From contig RSEH01000173.1 in the NCBI GenBank assembly GCA_006503475.1, positions 40,115 to 104,114 on the forward strand: a stretch of DNA of 64,000 nucleotides, given 5' to 3'. Each line of letters opens with the position of its first letter. Within the stretch, counting starts at the first letter, position 1. Positions 12,224 through 64,000 of this stretch are shown in pieces. This stretch comes from Stentor roeselii (Eukaryota > Ciliophora > Heterotrichea > Heterotrichida > Stentoridae). Made by a program: the position numbers and the translations under genes. The notes below the pieces were generated by a model. It ran no database searches. It worked only from the letters and a program-made list of their open reading frames with translations, and was not told the DNA's origin.

Positions 12224-13738
12224 TTAACTTGGTTTAGACTTGGGAGATCTCTCGTTTGTTGAGATTCCTGGAGTTCGACTTGAACGGCTTGAACGACTTG
12301 ATTTTAACTTTAAGGAATCTGATAACCATGGATGGTTTATGGCTTCTGAGGGAGTCATTCTTCTCTCTGGAAGCCATTCGAAACACCCTAATTTTCTCTT
12401 ACGTTTAAGCAAGTCCAACAAGACAATATCAGAAAAAAGTGACTCAAGAGGACGACTATCAGCAGTTCTAATCTTCCCTCTACCATTCTTAAAACAATTC
12501 GTAAACCCGTTAGTCCCAAAAAGCTTATAACGCTTAGCCGAGGCCTTAATGAGCTGATCAGGTGGCATTCCAAGAACTTCAACAAAAGTATAAATCTGAT
12601 CCACTTCATTTTCCCCAAAGAAAATCGGAGTCCCTAACAAAAGCTCAGAAACAATACATCCAAAAGACCACATATCAATAGCGCAATTGTAATTCAATCC
12701 AAGAATCACTTCCGGGGCGCGATAAATACGACTTTGTACATAAGTAAAAATTTTTTCACTTTCAAAACAACTGGAGCCAAAATCAATCATTTTAATATTC
12801 GACTCGTTCGGACTTTTCAACAGCAGGTTCTCCGGCTTCAAGTCACAATGAATCAACCTGCTCGACTTCAACCTCTGAAGCGCTGTCAACATCTGAACAG
12901 CGAATCTTCTAACTAAAGTACTCGAAAACCCTTTAAAACTATTCGCTTTGAGTAGGTCAAACAAGCTGAAACTTAATAATTCAAAAACAATGCACAAATG
13001 ACATCGAAACACGAAATATTCAAAAGTTTGAATAAATAATCCAGAGTGTTTTTTTTCATTATTTTTCAAAAAAGATAGAATTTTTAACTCGTTTTGACCC
13101 TGTTCATAAAAAATTTTCTGACTTTTAATGATCTTCACAGCGACTTCACGTTTTGATTTATGGTCCCAGCATCTGCAGACCTGGGCAAAGGCGCCTTTGC
13201 CGAGAAGTTCAATAATTTCATATTGATAAGCCAGGTGGTCTCCAATGATTACTTTGTAGTCACTTTTTTCGTCATCGAAGCCCATGTTGTGAAGTTTTAG
13301 AACTGGCAGGATTTTATCAGATTTCAATCCAAGGTAGTAAATTTCTTGATAGTCTAAAAGCTCTGATAACTCAAATTTCGTTAAAAGTCCAGAAAAAGTT
13401 GCAATTGTGCCTTCTGGGGATAAAGGAAGGAGGTGTTCGCCGATGTTCTCTCGAGGTGATGGTTTTCGCTTTATTGAAAATAATCTCTTTGTTGATGGAG
13501 ATTTCTGAAGATTTGAGGATACTGGAGATGTGACTGGCTTTTTGCAAGACTGGCTCGAAAAAAAACTGAACCTTGTAATGGTTTTAATTGGAGAGCTTTC
13601 TTGAGAGTTCTGAGAAAGACTTGCGAGGGAATCGTTTGGGTGGCGCAGCTTGGGCTTTGAGGTGATTTTTTTTAAGACGATTCGAGATTTGCTTTGAATT
13701 GAGTTTATTTTGGGGCTGAGACTTTTGGCTGTGTTCAT
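12224..13738 (-). CDS. DYRK-family protein kinase
   Basis: 504 aa. A basic, Ser-rich N-terminus of ~150 residues is followed by a DH-box-like DDEKSDYKVIIGDHLAYQYE, then the kinase domain: GKGAFAQV, VAVKIIK, HCDLKPENLLL, MIDFGSSC, the activation loop FTYVQSRIYRAPE and the CMGC insert. DYRKs autophosphorylate the second Tyr of YxY during synthesis and then phosphorylate Ser/Thr. Here the loop is F-T-Y: the first Tyr is Phe, the essential second Tyr is kept. The placement resembles DYRK2/4 rather than DYRK1. The leader holds TTATAAGAC just before the ATG. This promoter is part of the repeated unit next door at 13735-14231. Confidence 0.9.
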   Translation of the reverse strand: MNTAKSLSPKINSIQSKSRIVLKKITSKPKLRHPNDSLASLSQNSQESSPIKTITRFSFFSSQSCKKPVTSPVSSNLQKSPSTKRLFSIKRKPSPRENIGEHLLPLSPEGTIATFSGLLTKFELSELLDYQEIYYLGLKSDKILPVLKLHNMGFDDEKSDYKVIIGDHLAYQYEIIELLGKGAFAQVCRCWDHKSKREVAVKIIKSQKIFYEQGQNELKILSFLKNNEKKHSGLFIQTFEYFVFRCHLCIVFELLSFSLFDLLKANSFKGFSSTLVRRFAVQMLTALQRLKSSRLIHCDLKPENLLLKSPNESNIKMIDFGSSCFESEKIFTYVQSRIYRAPEVILGLNYNCAIDMWSFGCIVSELLLGTPIFFGENEVDQIYTFVEVLGMPPDQLIKASAKRYKLFGTNGFTNCFKNGRGKIRTADSRPLESLFSDIVLLDLLKRKRKLGCFEWLPERRMTPSEAINHPWLSDSLKLKSSRSSRSSRTPGISTNERSPKSKPS

Positions 13739-14231
13739 TAAAAAGTCTTATAATAAACACAAGGATTTTATAACTTTATATAAATAGGATCTATTAAGTT
13801 TAAAAGTTTTGATTTTTTTTTACAGTTCAGCACATGCCTGCTGTGTTGATTAAAAAGTCTTATAATAGCACAAGTAATTGATAACCTTATATGAATATAT
13901 CAATTAAACTTCAAATTTTTTGATTTTTCTAAACAATTCAGCTTCCCGTATTCATTAAAAAGTCTTAAATAAACAAAACGAATTCATAACCTTATATAAA
14001 TATATCTATTAAACTTCAATTTTTTTGATTTTTCCAAACAGTTCACCACAAGCTTCCTATATTCATTAAAAAGTCTTATAATAAACACAACGAATTCATA
14101 ACCTTATATAATATATCTATTAAACTTTAAACTTTTTGATTTTTTCCAAACAGTTCATCACAAGCTTCCCGTATTCATCAAAAATTCTCATCATAAACAA
14201 AAAATTCATAACCTTATATAAATATTATCTA
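13735..14231 (-). repeat. ~110-bp tandem array: Pumilio gene tail plus DYRK promoter
   Basis: About five tandem units start near 13735, 13848, 13951, 14062 and 14174 (103-113 bp spacing). Each unit, on the minus strand, contains a degenerate copy of the last ~17 Pumilio codons (YGKLVMNCLEKIKKFKV then stop in the copy at 14115-14180), the AT-rich spacer and a copy of the DYRK promoter/ATG region (TTATTATAAGAC...TTAATGAA). The unit nearest DYRK supplies its real promoter; the intact Pumilio end lies at 14232-14280. The array looks like unequal crossing-over of the intergenic region with short flanks of both genes. Confidence 0.8.
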
Positions 14232-15527
14232 TTAAACTTTAAACTTTTTGATTTTTTCCAAACAGTTCAGCACATGTTTGCCATAAGGATACCCTCTGAT
14301 ACTCGGTGCCTTTTCATTCACCTTGGCAATCAATTCATTCTGCAGTTTTCCAGTCGACATTTCAAGTGCCTTTTGAATGACGAAGTTAGCAAACTTATCA
14401 GTCATTAACTCAACGACTTTGACAGACCCAAATATTTCAGCAGCAAAGAGATGAACCTGTTCCTGGGTTCCAACAATGAAGCACTTTTCAATGACATTGC
14501 TGAATAGCCTTTACCTGGCGAATTTATGTTTGCTAAGTTCAAAAAGCCTTCCTAAGAAACTATTGATAAGAGCTTCTTTTTCCACCCTGGCTCCTTTGTC
14601 AAGGATATGTTGAATGACGTAATTTCCGTAGTTTTTCTGACTGATTCCAATAGAGTTCCTGATAATCAACTCGAAGATTTTCGTGATCTGGTCCTTCGGG
14701 CAGAACTCAATAATTTTCTGAATGACTCTACAACCGTATTGATGTTCAGCCCAATAAACAGTATCCTCTCTCAAAGCATCAACAATGAATGCGACATCAG
14801 CATAAGGAAGTATTTCAATACACTTCTGAATAACATGGTTGCCGTTTTGGTCCTCAACCGCTTTTCCCACATTATTTCTGAACTCGCTCGCAATTTGACG
14901 CTTCTGGTCATACTCCACAGAGTCCAGTACCTTTTGAAGCACTCGACATCCATACATATGAAGAGAAAGTTCTAAAATCTTTCCTGACATTTGATTCGCT
15001 ATCGCTCTTTTTTGGTCTTTTGTACCAAATTCAAAGATCTTTTGAACCACATAATTCCCGAACACGTCCAGGATTAAACTAAAGGAATTTTCAAGAATCT
15101 CTTCAAAAACCATCTGCTTGTCCTCAGCAGTGCTGGTCTCGTATCGCTGTTGAAGATAACGAGAACCTGACTGGTCCCTCGCCAGTTCTAAGACTCGACC
15201 GCGCATTTCTTGAAGGTCTGACTTTTTCAAGTCATTTGATGAACGGAAAGAAGGAACGAATTCAGGAGCTGCCGTATTTAGATTTGGACTTAAAGGACTT
15301 TTTAAAGATGTTGGCGCAAAGTTGCTGAAGATCGGGTCTTGTGATGAGCTGAAAAATGAGTTAAATGGAATGTCTGCTGGGGCGGAAGTCGACCTTTCGA
15401 GAAGTTGGGCTAACTCGTTTTCGTTGAGAAGGACGTGACGCTTTGTTTTTGTGAACCTTTTGAAGATTTCTTCGTCGGAATCGTCGTCTTCGATTAGGAT
15501 GTTACCGATTAATCTGCGTTCGACCAT
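14232..15527 (-). CDS. Pumilio-family (PUF) RNA-binding protein
   Basis: 426 aa: exon 14515-15527, a 15-nt intron 14500-14514 (gtaaaggctattcag) and exon 14232-14499. The start MVERR at 15525-15527 is preferred; upstream in-frame codons encode low-complexity sequence in a G-poor leader. After an acidic N-terminus the protein has eight Puf repeats with base-reading residues SRxxQ, NYxxQ, CRxxQ, NHxxQ, CRxxQ, NYxxQ, SNxxE and NFxxQ. Repeats 7 and 8 only appear once the intron is removed. These are almost the residues of animal PUM, predicting binding of UGUAUAUA in 3' UTRs. It acts as a cytoplasmic mRNA repressor by family knowledge. The last codons are repeated in the downstream tandem array. 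Confidence 0.93.
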
Positions 15528-29735: not shown

Positions 29736-32700
29736 CTAATCAATAACATATGAAATCCTTGTTTCATTATTTTTTCTAGCTTTCCTTACAATATAAACCA
29801 TCTTAACCACAAAGACAACAACTGAAATCAATATCTGAATACCAATAAACCCCAAAAGAGTATAAGTAACAGCCATCTCAATCAATGCTTCAGAAGTAGA
29901 TTCGACTGACAAGACATAAACACATACAAATATAACCAAAATGCAAATCTCACTAGCCAAGTTAACAAAAAACAAATCCAAGCTCTTAAAAGGTCTGGCG
30001 ATTAAAATGTAAACAAAATTTAAAAAGGATAAAAAAATATTCGAAATCCTTTGAACATTTGGAATTGATGTCAAAAAGATCTGGTTCAAAACATACAACA
30101 TTCTTCTCAGAAAGTAAAAATGATAATAAATCAATGAAAATTTTCCCTTTTTTGTATCCAACTCACTGTATAGTGATCCGTACTTGATGAAAAGGTTTTG
30201 GTCATTTCCTTCAATATTTTTATGATGAGTTAAAATCAATATCAAAGATGCTGGAATAGAAAAAGCTGCTAAAAACTAAATAATTTTTACTATTGTCATC
30301 CCTGCTAAAAACAAGTTAAATCTGAAAGCTCCTGGATTTTCTTTATTTTTCTAAAAATATGTTACGCTTAGTAGCTGGATAAATGAGAAGACTATCAGGT
30401 CTAGGTAGGATTGAATCCAAAGTCTAAGAAATGCGGAGTACTTGTTATTAGTGTAGGTGGATTGGCAACGTTTGGATAAAGCTTCGACAGGTATCTTTGA
30501 AAACAGCTTCAAAATAGGAAAAAATACCAATAGTCCAACCAACATCACTATTACCTGTCCAGCATTGATACAATAAACCGACCTTTCTATTTGATTATTC
30601 AAAGAACCTGAAAACGGCTGAGTTGACAAATTTTCACTAAAAACATAAAGCATCACATTAGGAATCATATTAAAACCTCCAGAAGCCAAAACAAGTTTTC
30701 GAATAGTAAGTGTTAAAGGATCATTACTCAAAGGAATAAAGTTAATCAACTGCAATGTATTAATCAAAGACCAAGCAGCAGCAGGGTTAGAAACCATTGC
30801 AATTCCAATCGACGCCGCAACAGTAGCTTGCGAAGTGGTTTTCATTTTTCCCACAAGTGCTTTAAGCTGAGGATTAACTTTCAACTCTTCAAATAACTCA
30901 ACCTTTTGTGAGTATTCTTTAAGTTTTGCACCTTTTTCACTAAAAACCTCTTCTTTAATAATCGAAACTTGACAAAAAGTTCCTGCATTTATCTGCTGAT
31001 CAGAAGTGACCTGGATGTAAAAAGAATTCACTTTCGCCTTATGGACTTTACTTGAAAAATCCTGAGATTTTATTGAAATCTCGAAATCTTTACTTGATAA
31101 GTTTTGTGGAATTTCTGAAAAATTTACATGAATACGATTTTCCTTGTTAATCATGAGGTTCATGTAGAAAAAGTAGTCAACACAATGAGAGTTTTCTTCT
31201 TTAAACCCTTCTGGACATATGCAATGATTTTTTATTTCAATGAAGTTTTCCTTGCATTTACAGTGTCCTGAGACATCAAGATCTTCTTTTGGGTCAGAGC
31301 AACTTAAACAGTAATCTGAAGATTTACAAGTTTTACATCGGTTATTACATGGAAAACATGCGAATTTCAGGTTTTTTTCAGCTTTCCAGTAACCATCTCT
31401 ACAAAGACAGTGAAAATTTTCACTTAAATAAGCATTTCTATCATTACACTCTAAACATATACTTGAATTAACACAGGTTTTACATCCATTAGAACAAGTT
31501 TTACATTCTCCTGGATTTTCAAGGTCAATATAAAAACCTGTTTTGCATGTGCAGAGATCATCTTTAAAGTTAAATCCAGAACAAAATACACAATCAGCTC
31601 TTTTTATTAATGAAGAAGTCGAATCGAAACATTCCGTGCAAACTTCAAGACTTAAACAACTTTTACATCCTTCAAGACACGGCATGCAAGACCCGTTTTT
31701 AAAGAGACTTGTTGAGTTAAAAAAGCCGAATTTGCAGAAACATCCAACATTTAAGTGAATTTCAGCGTTTTCATCTTCACAGGTTAAACATTTCAAAGGC
31801 TCGTTACATGTTTTGCAGTCTGGATGACAATTTGAACATTTTCCTCCTGATTTCAGAGGAATTTCTGAGTAAAATTTTGGACTGCATAGACATTCATTGG
31901 TTGTTGAAAGATATGAGTTTTGGTAGGGGCAATCAATGCAATATTCTGGGCATTTTAAACAGTTTGATTCACAGGAAAGGCAAGAACCGCCTTGAAATAA
32001 AGCTGAAGTGTTGTAAAAACCTGCTTTACATATACAGCCTAGGGAAGGGTGAATTGTTGAATTTGAATCAAGGCAAGAATCACAAAGTAAAGAAGATGAG
32101 CATGTTGAACATTCAGGATAACAAGGTAAGCAGGACCCTCCATTGATCAAGGCTGAGATATTATAAAATCTGTCTTCGCAAACACACCCAATACTATTAT
32201 GAATCATTGAATTTGACTTTTTGCAAGATTTGCAAAGAAAAGCACCTGAACATGTTGAACATTCAGCATAACAAGACAAGCAAGACCCTCCATTAATCAA
32301 AGCTGAAACATTATAAAACCCTTCTTTACAAATACATCCAATACTATTATGAGTCATTGCATTCGAATCACGACAAGAATCACAAAGTAAAGCACCTGAA
32401 CATGTTGAACATTCAGCATAACAAGACAAGCAAGACCCTCCATTGATTAAGGCTGAGACATTATAAAATCCGTTTTCGCAAACACATCCAATACTATTAT
32501 GGATCATTGAATTCGACTTTTTGCAAGACTTGCAAAGAAAAGCACCTGAGCATGCAGAACATTCAGCATAGCAAGACAAGCAAGACCCTCCATTAATCAA
32601 AGCTGAAACATTATAAAACCCTTCTTTACAAATACATCCAATACTATTATGAGTCATTGAATTCGAATCACGACAAGAACCACAAAGAAAAGCACCTGAG

Positions 32701-34112
32701 CATGCAGAACATTCAGCGTAACAAGACAAGCAAGACCCTCCATTAATCAAAGCTGAAACATTATAAAACCCTTCTTTACAAATACATCCAATACTATTAT
32801 GAACCATTGAATTGGAATCACGACAAGTACCACAAATTAAAGAAGACGAGCATGTTGAACATTCAGCATAACAAGACAAGCAAGACCCTCCATTAATAAG
32901 GGCTGTATTATTATAAAACCCGACTTTGCAAGCACATCCAATACTATTATGAGTCATTGAATTCGAATCACGACAAGAATCACAAAGAAAAGCACCTGAA
33001 CATGTAGAACATTCAGCATAACACGTCAAGCAACTTGCTGAATTATTCAAAGCTGTAGTGTTATAGAAGCCAGTTTTACAAATGCAACCAACTGTATTAT
33101 GAGGTGTTGCATTTGTAGCAAAACATTTGGTACACAAAAGTTCAGATTCACATTCAGCGCAATCAGTGTGACACGGCAAGCAAATATTTTTACTACTAGA
33201 GCAAAACTCGCCACTTTTGCAAAATGCTGAAGAAGTGCAGTAACATTTAAGACTGTTCAAATAAACTTTACAATATCCTGAAAGACAAGAGGCAGTATAA
33301 AGGCATTGACCGTCTATGCATCCACATTTATTTATAGCAACAGAAATGCAATATTCAATATTGTTTTCTTTTATAGCTGGAGAGCATGAAACAGAACAGT
33401 TTTTAACAAGGCAATTGCTTCCTGAGTAGCTTGCTGAATAGAAATCGCTGACGGGTCTGTATTCATTGAACAAGTAGAAACTCCAAACAAACCCTTCGAA
33501 TGATTCGGATGTAAACCCAATGAAGTGAAGGTAGCTTCCTACTTCTGAGTAAGGTGAAGGGAGATTTAAAGTGAGAGCAACTATATTATTTGCATGAAAA
33601 GTTGTTATTGTGCCTTGATTGATCATCACGACATATACCCAAGTTCCTACCTTTTTCTTACCATTTTTCAATAATTCACCGGAAGGACTTGTTAGCAGTG
33701 AAGAGTCATAAGATCCTTGAAGTAGTCTTGTCATCAAATAATTTCCGTAATCTTTCTTTTTCAGGTAAAAATAATCCCCTGAGGCCTCACTTTTACGGTA
33801 TGAAAGGAAATAGTCGTTGTTGTCTAAAGAATTCATCCACATCACTAAGGTAAAACTAGAACCGAGAGTCAATGAAGTGGTTTTTACTTCATTTGGAGGC
33901 AACTTTATATGAGCATTTGAACCTTCTGGGAAATATGCTCCTCTGGTTGTTGAAATTGTGTCAGAGGTTGATGTTAAAGTGCTCAACCCGTTTTGACCGT
34001 GGTTCCCTGAACCAGAGAGATCTGTGAAGGTTTGGTCGAAGTTCTGACTGAATTTGTAGGTAACTTGACTGGAGACTAAGACTGTGAAGAAGAAGAAGAG
34101 AAAGTATGGCAT
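29736..34112 (-). CDS. large membrane protein: LamG-like head, furin-type Cys repeats, C-terminal membrane helices (copy 1)
   Basis: 1443 aa after removing three 15-nt introns: 33647-33661 (gtaagaaaaaggtag, no in-frame stop), 30351-30365 (gtaacatatttttag) and 30276-30290 (gtaaaaattatttag). Order: signal peptide (MPYFLFFFFTVLVSS); LamG/ConA-like domain to ~residue 230; about fifteen GFR/furin-type Cys-rich repeats (CxxC-x2-C...CxC pattern) to ~950; a short beta-rich juxtamembrane region; then about seven membrane helices ending in a basic tail. Central Cys repeats are near-identical 50-residue copies. This fits a cell-surface receptor or adhesion protein common in ciliates; function unknown. 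Paralogue of 36069-40025, with introns at the same positions and last exons of identical length (60 and 540 nt). Confidence 0.82.
32130..33040 (-). repeat. 150-bp tandem repeats inside the Cys-rich region
   Basis: Six or so units of exactly 150 bp (50 codons) recur in frame; the block caagaccctcc appears at 32281, 32431, 32581, 32731 and 32881. Each encodes a Cys repeat such as SCYAECSTCSGAFLC followed by HNSIGCICKEGFYN. The high nucleotide identity implies recent expansion or gene conversion, so copy number may vary between strains or be mis-assembled. Confidence 0.85.
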
Positions 34113-53702: not shown

Positions 53703-54269
53703 ATGAGCAATAACTTTGACAGCAAACTGAACAGCCTCCATGGAAACTTAGACAATCTCAACCAAAAATTTGTCAAGCTAGACGAAAAATTCGTGGATCT
53801 CAACCAAAACTTTAGCAAGCTAGACGAAAAATTCGTGGATCTAAATCAAAACTTTAGCATGCTGGACGAAAAATTCGAGGATCTCAACCAAAACTTTAGC
53901 AACCTAGACGAAAAATTCGTGGATCTCAACCAAAACTTTAGCAAGCTTGACGAAAAATTCGTGGATTTCAATCAAAACTTTAGCAAGCTCGGCGAAAAAA
54001 TTAACAAAGAGGTAAAGAAAATCAAGACTGCAAAAGAATCGATAATCTATGAACTCATAGTTATACAAACCGCTCAGACCAACTACTTGTCGGACCTTGA
54101 CTTTATTAAATCTGAGCTCAAAAGTATCAGTGAGATGATCAATGTCAAAAACGAAGTGGGAACTACGAAAATGTTACAAAAGCTCTGGGACTCCTGGACA
54201 GGGTTTGTGGCCAACCCAGTTTGCTGGTATCTTTTCAAGGTGATTTTTTTAGAAATAAATAACTATTAA
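53703..54269 (+). CDS. coiled-coil repeat protein with C-terminal hydrophobic segment
   Basis: 188 aa from the first in-frame ATG (53703). The frame is open upstream to 53610 with no ATG, so the true N-terminus is uncertain. Residues ~15-100 are tandem 14-residue units LNQNFSKLDEKFVD (42-bp DNA repeats), a perfect double heptad, forming a long parallel coiled coil. A second helical region and a hydrophobic end (NPVCWYLFKVIFLEI) follow. Function unknown. TTATAATAATAG lies ~90 bp upstream, where other genes have ATG near this element, hinting at a lost start. Confidence 0.55.
   Translation: MSNNFDSKLNSLHGNLDNLNQKFVKLDEKFVDLNQNFSKLDEKFVDLNQNFSMLDEKFEDLNQNFSNLDEKFVDLNQNFSKLDEKFVDFNQNFSKLGEKINKEVKKIKTAKESIIYELIVIQTAQTNYLSDLDFIKSELKSISEMINVKNEVGTTKMLQKLWDSWTGFVANPVCWYLFKVIFLEINNY
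53752..54000 (+). repeat. 42-bp tandem repeat coding for a coiled coil
   Basis: About six in-frame copies of a 42-bp unit (caaaactttagcaagc core) encode the LNQNFSKLDEKFVD repeat. Copies differ by few bases, so the expansion is recent. Confidence 0.8.
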
Positions 54270-56542: not shown

Positions 56543-56953
56543 CTAATAACCCCAGTCCTTATAGATGCATTCTGGGTACTTGTCTTTCCATTGTCTTGCA
56601 TACTTTCCAGTATTAACGTCGTAATTCGAGCCATCTGCATGAATCTCGAGTTTCTTTGTTGTCAAATTCAAAATGTACACTACTGCTTAATACTACAGTC
56701 TTCTTTACTCATACCTTTCTAGAAAGTACAACCTTCTATTTAGATCTACGATCTGAGTTACTTGTACCTTGGTAGTAATTACTACCTACTGATTGTGTCT
56801 ACGATCTTGATTACTCATACCTTGCTATTTGTTACCTGCTGCTTAGATCTACTGTCTTCTTTACGTTTACCTTTTGTTAAAATTACTGCCTGCTTAGTAA
56901 TTGTACCGACTTCTATAATTGTTACAGCCTGCTGGTTATTCGCTACCTACTAG
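56543..56953 (-). repeat. tandem ~53-bp repeats rich in 15/16-nt intron-like elements, ending in a coding-like tail
   Basis: Downstream of the coiled-coil gene the minus strand continues in the same frame through ~85 codons holding 12 TAA/TAG and no TGA, then opens into VYILNLTTKKLEIHADGSNY, then TGKYARQWKDKYPECIYKDW and a stop at 56543-56545. About six diverged ~53-bp units make up the middle. Exact 15-nt GTA...AG elements with A at position 10 lie at 56950-56964, 56932-56946, 56856-56870, 56821-56835, 56806-56820, 56753-56767 and 56700-56714; a 16-nt one lies at 56910-56925. Either a decayed 3' end or a micro-intron array. Confidence 0.55.
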
Positions 56954-58655
56954 CTAGAATCTACTATCTTGAATTAATTCATACGTTCTGTTATCCAAAT
57001 ACCTGACTTTATAGCACCCACTTCGTTTTAAATACCATCTCTGATCATAATTTACCTGAACTATAACTTACAATCTGATGAGGCATACCTAAATAAAACT
57101 CACAATAAAAAACATAAAGACCATCGTTTGACATTTTTATTTCTTTACAATTATCTCTGGTCCACCTAAATCCACCCCAAGCAACAAATTGATTGAATTT
57201 TTGATCTAAGTTCAATGCTTCAAAATCTGCATATAAAGAACCTAAATTTTTTCTTTCTGCTTGCAATTTTTTAATCCTTTCCTCCTCTTCTTTTTGCTTT
57301 CTTTCATTTTCCTCTTTTATTCTTAGATCTTCTTGTTCTTTTTGCCGCCTCGCATCTTCCTCTTGCTTTTTTTTCAACTCTTCCGCTTCTTTTTTCTTTC
57401 TCTCTTCCTCTTCTTGTTTTCTTTTGATTTCTTCTTGTTCCTTCCTTTCATTCTCTCTCCTAATTCTAATCTCTTCATCCTTTTTGAATTGCTTGTAGCC
57501 ATCAATCTCTCTTCTAACATTATTCTGAAACCCTTGATCAAATCGATTAAACTGTCCCTGATACTCCTGAGTAAGTTCTTGAACCTGTCCTCTAATCCTC
57601 TCACAAAACAAGTTAAATCCATCATTCAATCCATCAATCCTCGTTTCACACTGTACCCTCAAGTCTTCCCCTCTCTTATGAACATTTTCACCAATAGTTT
57701 TCGCCATAGTTTCCAAAGTCTGATTGATTTCAACGATTCTCTGATCAACAATCAAATTGATCTGATTGAACTGAAGAGCGATTTGATTTTCAGCGTTTTC
57801 CCTGAACTCTTTTATCTTCTGATCCTGAGCCCTGTTGAAGTCCGCCTGAGCAACAAGTCCATCAACAGTGCTGTTATACTTTCCATTAACTTCATCAATT
57901 GCATTATTCTGAATCTCAATCATTTTTTCAAGCACCGAGACCCTATCCTGCAGAAGGTCAGTCCTGTCATTCAAGCAAAACCTTTTTTCTCGCTGCTGAG
58001 TCTCCAAGTCTTGCTTCCTCAGGGCGTTTTGGAAGTTCTGCTCAATCTGAAGAGTCGAGTTTTCCACCTGCGCCAGACGCGTGTTGATCTCTTCTCGACT
58101 TTCCCTGTCCTGCTGAGACTGGCTCCTGACTTCTTCCAGCAAATCATTGCTCTTCTTCAAGTGCCCCATGATGTTCTTGATGTCCTCACTGAAAAGAGAA
58201 AAGTCGACAGAGGCACTATCGTTTGAGAAGTGATCGTCAACGAGTTTCTTGAAGTCTTCTGAGCTTTTGAACTTCAGCTTCAGGTCGCCCAGGTTTTTGA
58301 ATGACTCTTGCGGAAGAGATTCGGTTTGGGAAAGGTTTGAAGCCATTTCGATCAGCTTGTCTTGGCGCTCGGTCAGGTCTGAGGTGATTTGGCAGAGTTT
58401 TTTGCAGATTTCTTCGAACATCTCCTTGCCTGTCAGCATCACTTTGCTCATTGTTGATGAAAGGGTCTTCATTTCTTTGGCTAGCAGAGATGGGGTCCCC
58501 TGGTCTTCTAGCTTTAACAGAGGGCGAATTGAGTGGCTGCCTGGTCCTCCCAGGTGCCTTTCTAGGTGGAACTCGCAGTATTTTAGAGTCCGGTCGCATG
58601 AACAGCTATTTTTTGGGCTGCCTGGGCAGTCCCCGTATGAACACCTATCATCCAT
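56954..58655 (-). CDS. B-box-like zinc-finger coiled-coil protein
   Basis: 561 aa with a 16-nt intron at 57056-57071 (gtaagttatagttcag); exons 57072-58655 and 56954-57055. The N-terminus has a zinc-binding pattern like a B-box (C-x4-C, CSC, YCEFHLERH, HSIRP). Residues ~70-480 are a long coiled coil, ending in a Glu/Lys/Gln-rich stretch (KRKQEEEERKKKEAEELKKK). The C-terminal domain reads FVAWGGFRWTRDN, LYVFYCEFYLGMPHQIVNYD and, after splicing, WYLKRSGCYKVRYLDNRTYE before TAG. The B-box plus coiled-coil layout recalls TRIM proteins without RING. An internal in-frame GTG...TAG interval (15 nt, at GTGAGTTTTATTTAG) might also be an intron. TTATAATAA precedes the ATG. Confidence 0.72.
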
Positions 58656-63923: not shown

Positions 63924-64000
63924 TTAGGGTGTTAGGGTGTTAGGGTGTTAGGGTGTTAGGGTGTTAGGGTGTTAGGGTGTTAGGGTGTTAGGGTGTTAGG
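63924..64000 (+). repeat. telomere, (TTAGGGTG)n
   Basis: About 9.6 perfect copies of the 8-nt unit TTAGGGTG run to the last base with the G-rich strand 3' outward, as at a real chromosome end. The C-strand unit is CCCTAACA, the repeat reported for heterotrich ciliates such as Stentor. It directly follows AT-rich DNA. Confidence 0.97.

Follow-up and report, generated by a model that had tools for sequence, protein, structure and literature searches.

Between a long coiled-coil coding region and a short conserved C-terminal exon, a gene on the minus strand of the 64-kb stretch of Stentor roeselii DNA analysed here (the window) carries, at 56683-57103, 24 GT..AG elements in a row, each of 14-17 nt, and the exons between them measure 0, 3 or 6 nt. 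We think it probable that such arrays are real spliceosomal introns of 14-17 nt, which lie head to tail or enclose exons of one or two codons, and that these exons specify a variable loop. The grounds are the anatomy of the elements, exon lengths that keep the frame, conserved splice signals, constrained flanks and the many genes with the same layout, all of which can be seen in the sequence itself.

Layout of the window gene

The gene begins at 58655 with a cysteine-rich stretch followed by a long coiled coil, and is open and intron-free as far as 57104. Its parts are as follows, A10 being an A at position 10 of an element.

57104..58655 (-): exon 1, of 517 codons and one further base, with ...IKMSNDGLYVFY + T at its end, in phase 1
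57089..57103 (-): element 1, 15 nt, GTG start, A10
57075..57088 (-): element 2, 14 nt, adjoins element 1 (0-nt exon)
57072..57074 (-): microexon ATT, between elements 2 and 3
57056..57071 (-): element 3, 16 nt, a "good intron" in the sequence-only reading made before this work
57039..57055 (-): element 4, 17 nt, without A10, boundary uncertain, required for the frame
57021..57035 (-): element 5, 15 nt
57003..57017 (-): element 6, 15 nt, GTG start, A10
56988..57002 (-): element 7, 15 nt, without A10, possibly coding instead
56968..56984 (-): element 8, 17 nt, boundary less certain
56950..56964 (-): element 9, 15 nt, holds TAG at 56954-56956
56932..56946 (-): element 10, 15 nt
56910..56925 (-): element 11, 16 nt
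56893..56906 (-): element 12, 14 nt, A at 9 and not 10
56871..56886 (-): element 13, 16 nt
56856..56870 (-): element 14, 15 nt, a repeat start in the sequence-only reading
56839..56852 (-): element 15, 14 nt
56821..56835 (-): element 16, 15 nt
56806..56820 (-): element 17, 15 nt, likewise a repeat start
56789..56802 (-): element 18, 14 nt
56768..56782 (-): element 19, 15 nt
56753..56767 (-): element 20, 15 nt, likewise a repeat start
56736..56749 (-): element 21, 14 nt
56715..56729 (-): element 22, 15 nt, in-frame TAG within
56700..56714 (-): element 23, 15 nt, likewise a repeat start
56683..56696 (-): element 24, 14 nt, at 56680-56693 in a frame-aware parse
56543..56682 (-): terminal exon, ...LVYILNLTTKKLEIHADG...ARQWKDKYPECIYKDWGY, stop TAG, conserved in paralogues

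Thirteen of the elements are of 15 nt, six of 14, three of 16 and two of 17, and 21 of the 24 have A10. Together they occupy 361 of the 421 nt of the array; the 16 internal exons, each of 3 or 6 nt, make up the other 60 nt, and at seven junctions there is no exon between neighbouring elements. Taking out all 24 gives a single open frame of 583 aa that runs from the coiled-coil gene through the conserved C-terminus, with a predicted loop of 22 residues, YYVEHIAGFAGNTDLGNQGYLV, ahead of YILNLTTKK. Element 24 was placed by hand and is three bases off the frame-aware parse, which gives ...GYCM in the identical frame. The weakest elements are 4, 7 and 8, either for want of A10 (4 and 7) or for a length of 17 nt (4 and 8), and element 7 keeps the frame whether it is retained or removed. 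In a scan of both strands of the whole window this was the sole cluster of at least four elements with gaps of at most 24 nt, with 22 elements at 56680-57103.

The sequence-only reading had seen the array as lying within 56543..57071, and there is indeed an array there, but it is larger and starts at 57103. Its four 15-nt elements starting at 56870, 56820, 56767 and 56714 all have GTA, A10 and AG as described, the repeat junctions are AG/GT, and the frame of the terminal exon does contain 12 in-frame stops from 56956 to 56689 (seven TAA, five TAG and no TGA). The repeats of about 53 bp are present, at spacings of 53, 53 and 50, but a repeat finder gives four copies and not about six, and the stop at 56954-56956 sits within the canonical 15-nt element 56950-56964. 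The four removals that it proposed (56950-56964, 56932-56946, 56910-56925 and 56806-56820) all belong to the set that opens the frame. It had found no set linking cleanly to the terminal segment; a link is obtained once all elements are removed, those of 14 and 17 nt included. Its description of the elements as intron-like was borne out in every respect that could be tested from sequence.

With regard to the product, a strand VWNLETKK presumably resembles WD40, and the flanking strands had suggested a WD40 origin. This was dropped, as Pfam gave no match: neither the window protein as predicted after splicing nor four pieces of its C-terminus, all typed by hand, had a family above the cut-off, and with the same queries the WD40 profile gave no row at E up to 10. 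We regard the protein as one of a large coiled-coil family in which the loop varies and many genes lie near contig ends.

Two other kinds of repeat were seen in the window. A telomere-type repeat, (TTAGGGTG)n, at 63924-64000 ends the window about 5.3 kb from the gene, and there are three further tandem arrays, at 32050-33157, 13734-14274 and 53755-53999, with periods of 150/300, 112 and 42 nt respectively.

The gene family and its arrays

The window's own genome (44.4 Mb in 522 contigs) was searched for relatives. At the DNA level there are 14 matching places besides the window, on 10 contigs and with 73-96% identity, which span portions of the array or the terminal exon. The N-terminal 186 residues match 61 places, and in 24 of the 30 loci cut out from that search a contig end lies within 10 kb. 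A search with the terminal-exon peptide of C5, altered at one residue, gave 98 matching places at E <= 0.1, not all of them separate genes. All 20 regions fetched from the terminal-exon matches have, by eye, an element cluster directly ahead of the terminal exon. Another 11 family loci had been missed by the motif scan, and six of these (C509, C166, C202, C119, C410 and C406) have clusters of 5-17 elements, while C42, C494, C49, C243 and C294 have no cluster of at least five elements in the DNA examined, which in some may end before the array. With arrays in 20 of 20 fetched loci and six of the 11 missed ones, the arrangement is widespread in a large family and no peculiarity of a single gene.

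Parsing started from 44 members, of which 39 have a recognisable first element and 38 also the last acceptor; the counts below are for these arrays, which are related copies, so that the counts are not independent. C264 has lost its last AG and is thus outside the 38, C435, C30, C235, C29 and C135 were excluded because an end is missing or the first element non-canonical, and C227 and C8 are also outside the counts. Acceptors were taken as AG followed by T and the motif in 33 arrays and by hand in five, so the T after AG is there by construction. The first elements of the related arrays have the form GT..A10..AG and are mostly of 15 nt, some holding in-frame stops, and the first microexon starts with ATT, as in the window, in 29 of the 38 arrays (counted by eye).

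Some of the other arrays are unusual. At C135:17500-18500 elements like tiny introns extend over nearly the whole 1 kb and are followed by a different-looking terminal exon. The array at C227:600-2700 comprises some forty repeats. Many of them are 33 nt long and consist of a pair of adjoining 15-nt elements and 3 nt more; one frame, which reads as GKRNKGIQNE repeats, is nearly open, and both coding and splicing are conceivable. At C186:211040-211207 there is a fragment of 168 bp that is 96% identical to the window array, with some GT and AG changed and the rest of the gene absent; it is apparently a piece that has moved and is probably non-functional.

Spacing and anatomy of the elements

The 38 arrays were parsed without regard to frame, accepting non-overlapping GT..AG elements of 14-17 nt with A10 (or A at 9, 11 or 12 for 14-, 16- and 17-mers). 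Of 11737 bp, 8814 lie in elements so found, where 20 dinucleotide shuffles average 2578, and there are 586 elements on the array strand and 24 on the reverse strand. With coverage so far above the shuffles, and no other such cluster in the window, the array is not due to chance.

The gaps between neighbours are mostly of 0, 3 or 6 nt (135, 268 and 61 cases), with five of 9 nt, and 471 of the 483 gaps of up to 12 nt are divisible by 3; for distinct element-gap-element triples the figure is 448 of 460. This is so after elements of every length (103/106 after 14-mers, 264/267 after 15-mers, 91/97 after 16-mers and 13/13 after 17-mers), and the start-to-start distances are spread over the three classes modulo 3 as 269/93/121. 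In the whole genome, pairs of 15-nt elements are found 223 times with a gap of 0 (24 in a control with the reversed pattern), 3 times with a gap of 2 (15), 280 times with a gap of 3 (14) and once with a gap of 4 (8), although arrays such as that on C227 give many of these matches, which are not independent events. The pattern 15+3+14 occurs 57 times against 11 in the reversed control, and pairs of 16-nt elements 169 times with a gap of 3 (12) and 7 times with a gap of 2 (52).

The counts for 15-nt pairs could by themselves be explained by codon periodicity, as 15 and 18 are multiples of 3, but elements of 14 and 16 nt also have gaps that are multiples of 3 and these cases cannot be so explained. 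Codon periodicity as the sole explanation was rejected on the 14- and 16-nt cases and on the contrast between 16+3+16 and 16+2+16.

The A at position 10 was looked at separately, in 15-mers chosen without requiring it. It is present in 88% of 326 distinct 15-mers, with A at 34% and 30% in the neighbouring positions, and also in 80% of 103 16-mers and 92% of 106 14-mers, so that the distance from the 5' end to this A is held near 10 at all these lengths.

These data also bear on the proposal that only some of the elements are introns, with the 14-nt and stop-bearing ones spliced and the other 15-mers being coding repeats, G-x-S-N-x-D, that mimic introns. A parsimony parse with few introns does open frames in 11 of 11 arrays, the window included, some repeat-start 15-mers translate to sensible peptides, and the 33-nt repeats of C227 are, as mentioned, nearly open in one frame. 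A mimic based on codon periodicity predicts the opposite of the genome-wide excess of 16+3+16 over 16+2+16, however, gaps that follow 16- and 14-nt elements are likewise divisible by 3, and GT, A10 and AG are conserved in the elements. We consider the proposal unlikely, and the few-intron model with coding 15-mers, which was initially our main model, was dropped.

Reading frame

In every one of the 39 genes whose first element is recognisable, exon 1 ends in T, and upstream of this base the phase-1 frame is open over the 37-91 nt available in 38 of them, reading like ...NDGKYLF.., with C459 having a stop within 91 nt. On the other side, in 33 of the 38 arrays no frame stays open longer than the one that starts two bases past the acceptor. 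Unspliced, 37 of the 38 have stops in all three frames. Seven of the 38 arrays have a genomic length divisible by 3, and for 24 the length left after frame-blind removal is so.

If the frame is demanded and introns of 13-18 nt are allowed, the expected phase can be opened in 36 of 38 arrays, against 25 of 760 shuffled arrays, the two without a solution being C473 and C354. The wrong phases can also be opened in 28 and 29 of the 38, and the expected phase is the best-scoring in 27, so that the open-frame test is weaker than it looks and discriminates poorly. Introns of 15 and 16 nt alone suffice in only 7 of the 36 open solutions. In a separate run on 11 arrays that included the window, a parse restricted to 15/16-nt introns gave no open solution in any and was rejected, and allowing 14 to 18 nt opened nine.

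Counting stop codons in the tiny exons makes for a weak test. Read in the expected phase, the frame-blind chains have 5 stops among 281 codons; the other two phases have 9 among 272 and 25 among 218. When the microexons of each chain are put in random order the mean is 8.2 stops (P=0.089, a weak test), permuting them as a pool gives P=0.0025, and shuffling the bases gives a mean of 24.6 stops.

Two other ways of reading the array were considered. Unspliced coding with stops read as glutamine was rejected, as the 53-nt unit shifts the frame each time and array lengths differ modulo 3 between paralogues. Reading TGA as tryptophan would be a Blepharisma-like code; treating TGA as sense barely lengthens the longest ORFs of the window, and TGA reassignment is not needed.

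Excision of the whole of 57103 to 56683 as one long intron or composite unit, with the 3-nt pieces never translated, would also keep the frame, the first GT and last AG being in matching phase. One-piece excision does not explain why gaps should be exactly 0, 3 or 6 nt, why internal GT, A10 and AG should be conserved or why the residual length is more often a multiple of 3 than the genomic length, and the annotated introns of Stentor coeruleus are of 15-16 nt (PMC9505925). We think this improbable. For removal of the elements one by one, which we prefer, the points that weigh against include the 14- and 17-nt elements, which fall outside the 15/16 nt annotated for S. coeruleus, and the three weak elements of the window (4, 7 and 8). 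In a scan of ordinary ORF joins there is a clear peak only at 15 nt (12 joins, 7 of them with GTA and the A), with six at 14 nt, of which one is of this kind.

Conservation and selection

Comparing the window gene with the C219 paralogue gives a dN/dS of 0.17 upstream of the array (500 codons) and 0.26 in the terminal exon (43 codons). The terminal exon was compared in 14 pairs, and in 12 of the 13 that were computable (C86-C5 was not) dN/dS is below 1. The other pairs range from 0.16 to 0.92 (C5-C261 0.92), apart from C493-C517 at 3.1 with very few synonymous changes. As both flanks are under purifying selection, the gene is read through the array.

Substitutions within arrays were counted in nine close pairs in both directions, with elements called in one gene and compared in the other. 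Changes are found at 45 of 1349 GT and AG positions and 10 of 321 A10 positions, against 474 of 3062 other element positions, a difference of about five times, and at 195 of 1287 positions outside elements. The microexons give no sign of purifying selection, with 70 of 385 positions substituted and 300 of 1739 in intron interiors, which does not speak for our interpretation.

The sequence-only reading had offered decay of an intron-rich end as one explanation, in which the arrays would be non-functional remnants and the gene would end upstream. There are family members that look damaged, namely C264 without its last AG, C473 and C354 without an open parse and C39 with stops in the terminal exon, as well as the lone 168-bp fragment on C186. 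But the protein sequence of the terminal exon is conserved throughout the family, with the dN/dS values given above, and the splice signals are conserved, so that decay is disfavoured and we regard it as very unlikely.

Proposed splicing and growth of the arrays

If the elements are introns, the spliceosome would remove every one separately, and this may happen one after another, a stepwise removal being possible because many elements abut without an exon between them. Abutting splice sites and stepwise removal are features of recursive splicing, to which the arrays can be likened. The leftover exons of 3 and 6 nt, in phase 1, would be joined and translated, and in the window gene the 60 nt of microexons would thus give the 22-residue loop that separates the coiled-coil part from the conserved C-terminus. 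Since a unit of intron plus codon is self-contained, its gain or loss would cost only one or two loop residues, and array length could drift and come to differ between paralogues.

Close paralogues differ in part by whole units. C462 and C247 differ by 49 nt, which is made up of whole units of 15+15+3+16, and between the window gene and C219 there are indels of 15 and 30 nt that are whole units and two others, of 14 and 2 nt, that are not. Several arrays have a repeat unit of 18, 19, 33 or 53 nt. Tandem duplication as the route of intron gain, also suggested in the sequence-only reading, is in keeping with periodicities of 53, 33 and 18/19 nt, but introns that are nearly identical are often followed by different codons. 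For pairs of similar introns within an array 69 of 603 inner positions differ (a figure lowered by the choice of pairs with at most two inner mismatches) against 83 of 189 in the codons that follow, and C285 and C381 have identical introns plainly beside different codons. Plain duplication may thus not be the whole story: either the codons diversify quickly or introns are copied without their codon.

It is conceivable, though we doubt it, that the arrays are a splicing-based generator of diversity, in which intron units copy themselves into a protein loop at one-codon spacing, and every related gene gives many loop variants through retention of in-frame 15-nt elements or choice among neighbouring AGs. 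On this view, where near-identical introns stand next to different codons, the cause would be movement of introns or selection for diverse codons and not plain duplication.

Comparison with known systems

Among the open-licence PubMed Central titles and abstract openings listed in our searches, none gives an account of chains of one-codon exons between 15-nt introns. If our interpretation is correct, this would be an extreme gene structure, in which dozens of genes have exons of at most one codon strung between introns of roughly 15 nt, and a natural test of minimal exon size, of stepwise removal of abutting introns and of intron multiplication. Gene finders that permit just a few introns of 15/16 nt would truncate or split such genes.

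In Stentor coeruleus 90.9% of annotated introns are of 15 nt with A10, 16-nt introns mostly have A at 11 (section 2.1), and intron-bearing genes mostly have one intron, genes having more than eight being mentioned with their splicing left open (PMC9505925). The elements described here are like these introns in being GT..AG, mostly of 15 nt and with A at position 10, and GT and AG are conserved; they differ in that there are about two dozen in 421 nt, that lengths of 14 and 17 nt occur too (16 of the 24 window elements are of 15 or 16 nt, six of 14 and two of 17), and that array 16-mers have A at 10 (80%) and not 11.

The micro-exon genes of Schistosoma mansoni have exons of 3-81 bp and introns of up to 5 kbp (PMC10526429). 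The resemblance is in the runs of very short exons in a multigene family, here mostly of 0, 3 or 6 nt and keeping the frame at 448 of 460 gaps; the long introns have no counterpart, the introns proposed here being of 14-17 nt and often abutting without an exon. Single exons of 3 bp or 1 nt are spliced in Drosophila hth (PMC7392893) and Arabidopsis (PMC4674806), but those tiny exons are single, whereas here there are chains of them in many genes.

With intron gain by tandem duplication (PMC4974935) and introner-like elements (PMC4457414) the arrays share the repeated intron copies, and the window junctions are AG/GT, but the copies here are one codon apart in a single gene region. Stwintrons (PMC8469720) are perhaps similar in having abutting splice sites for which stepwise removal may be needed, but the elements here are complete and lie side by side, and are not nested in the splice signal of another.
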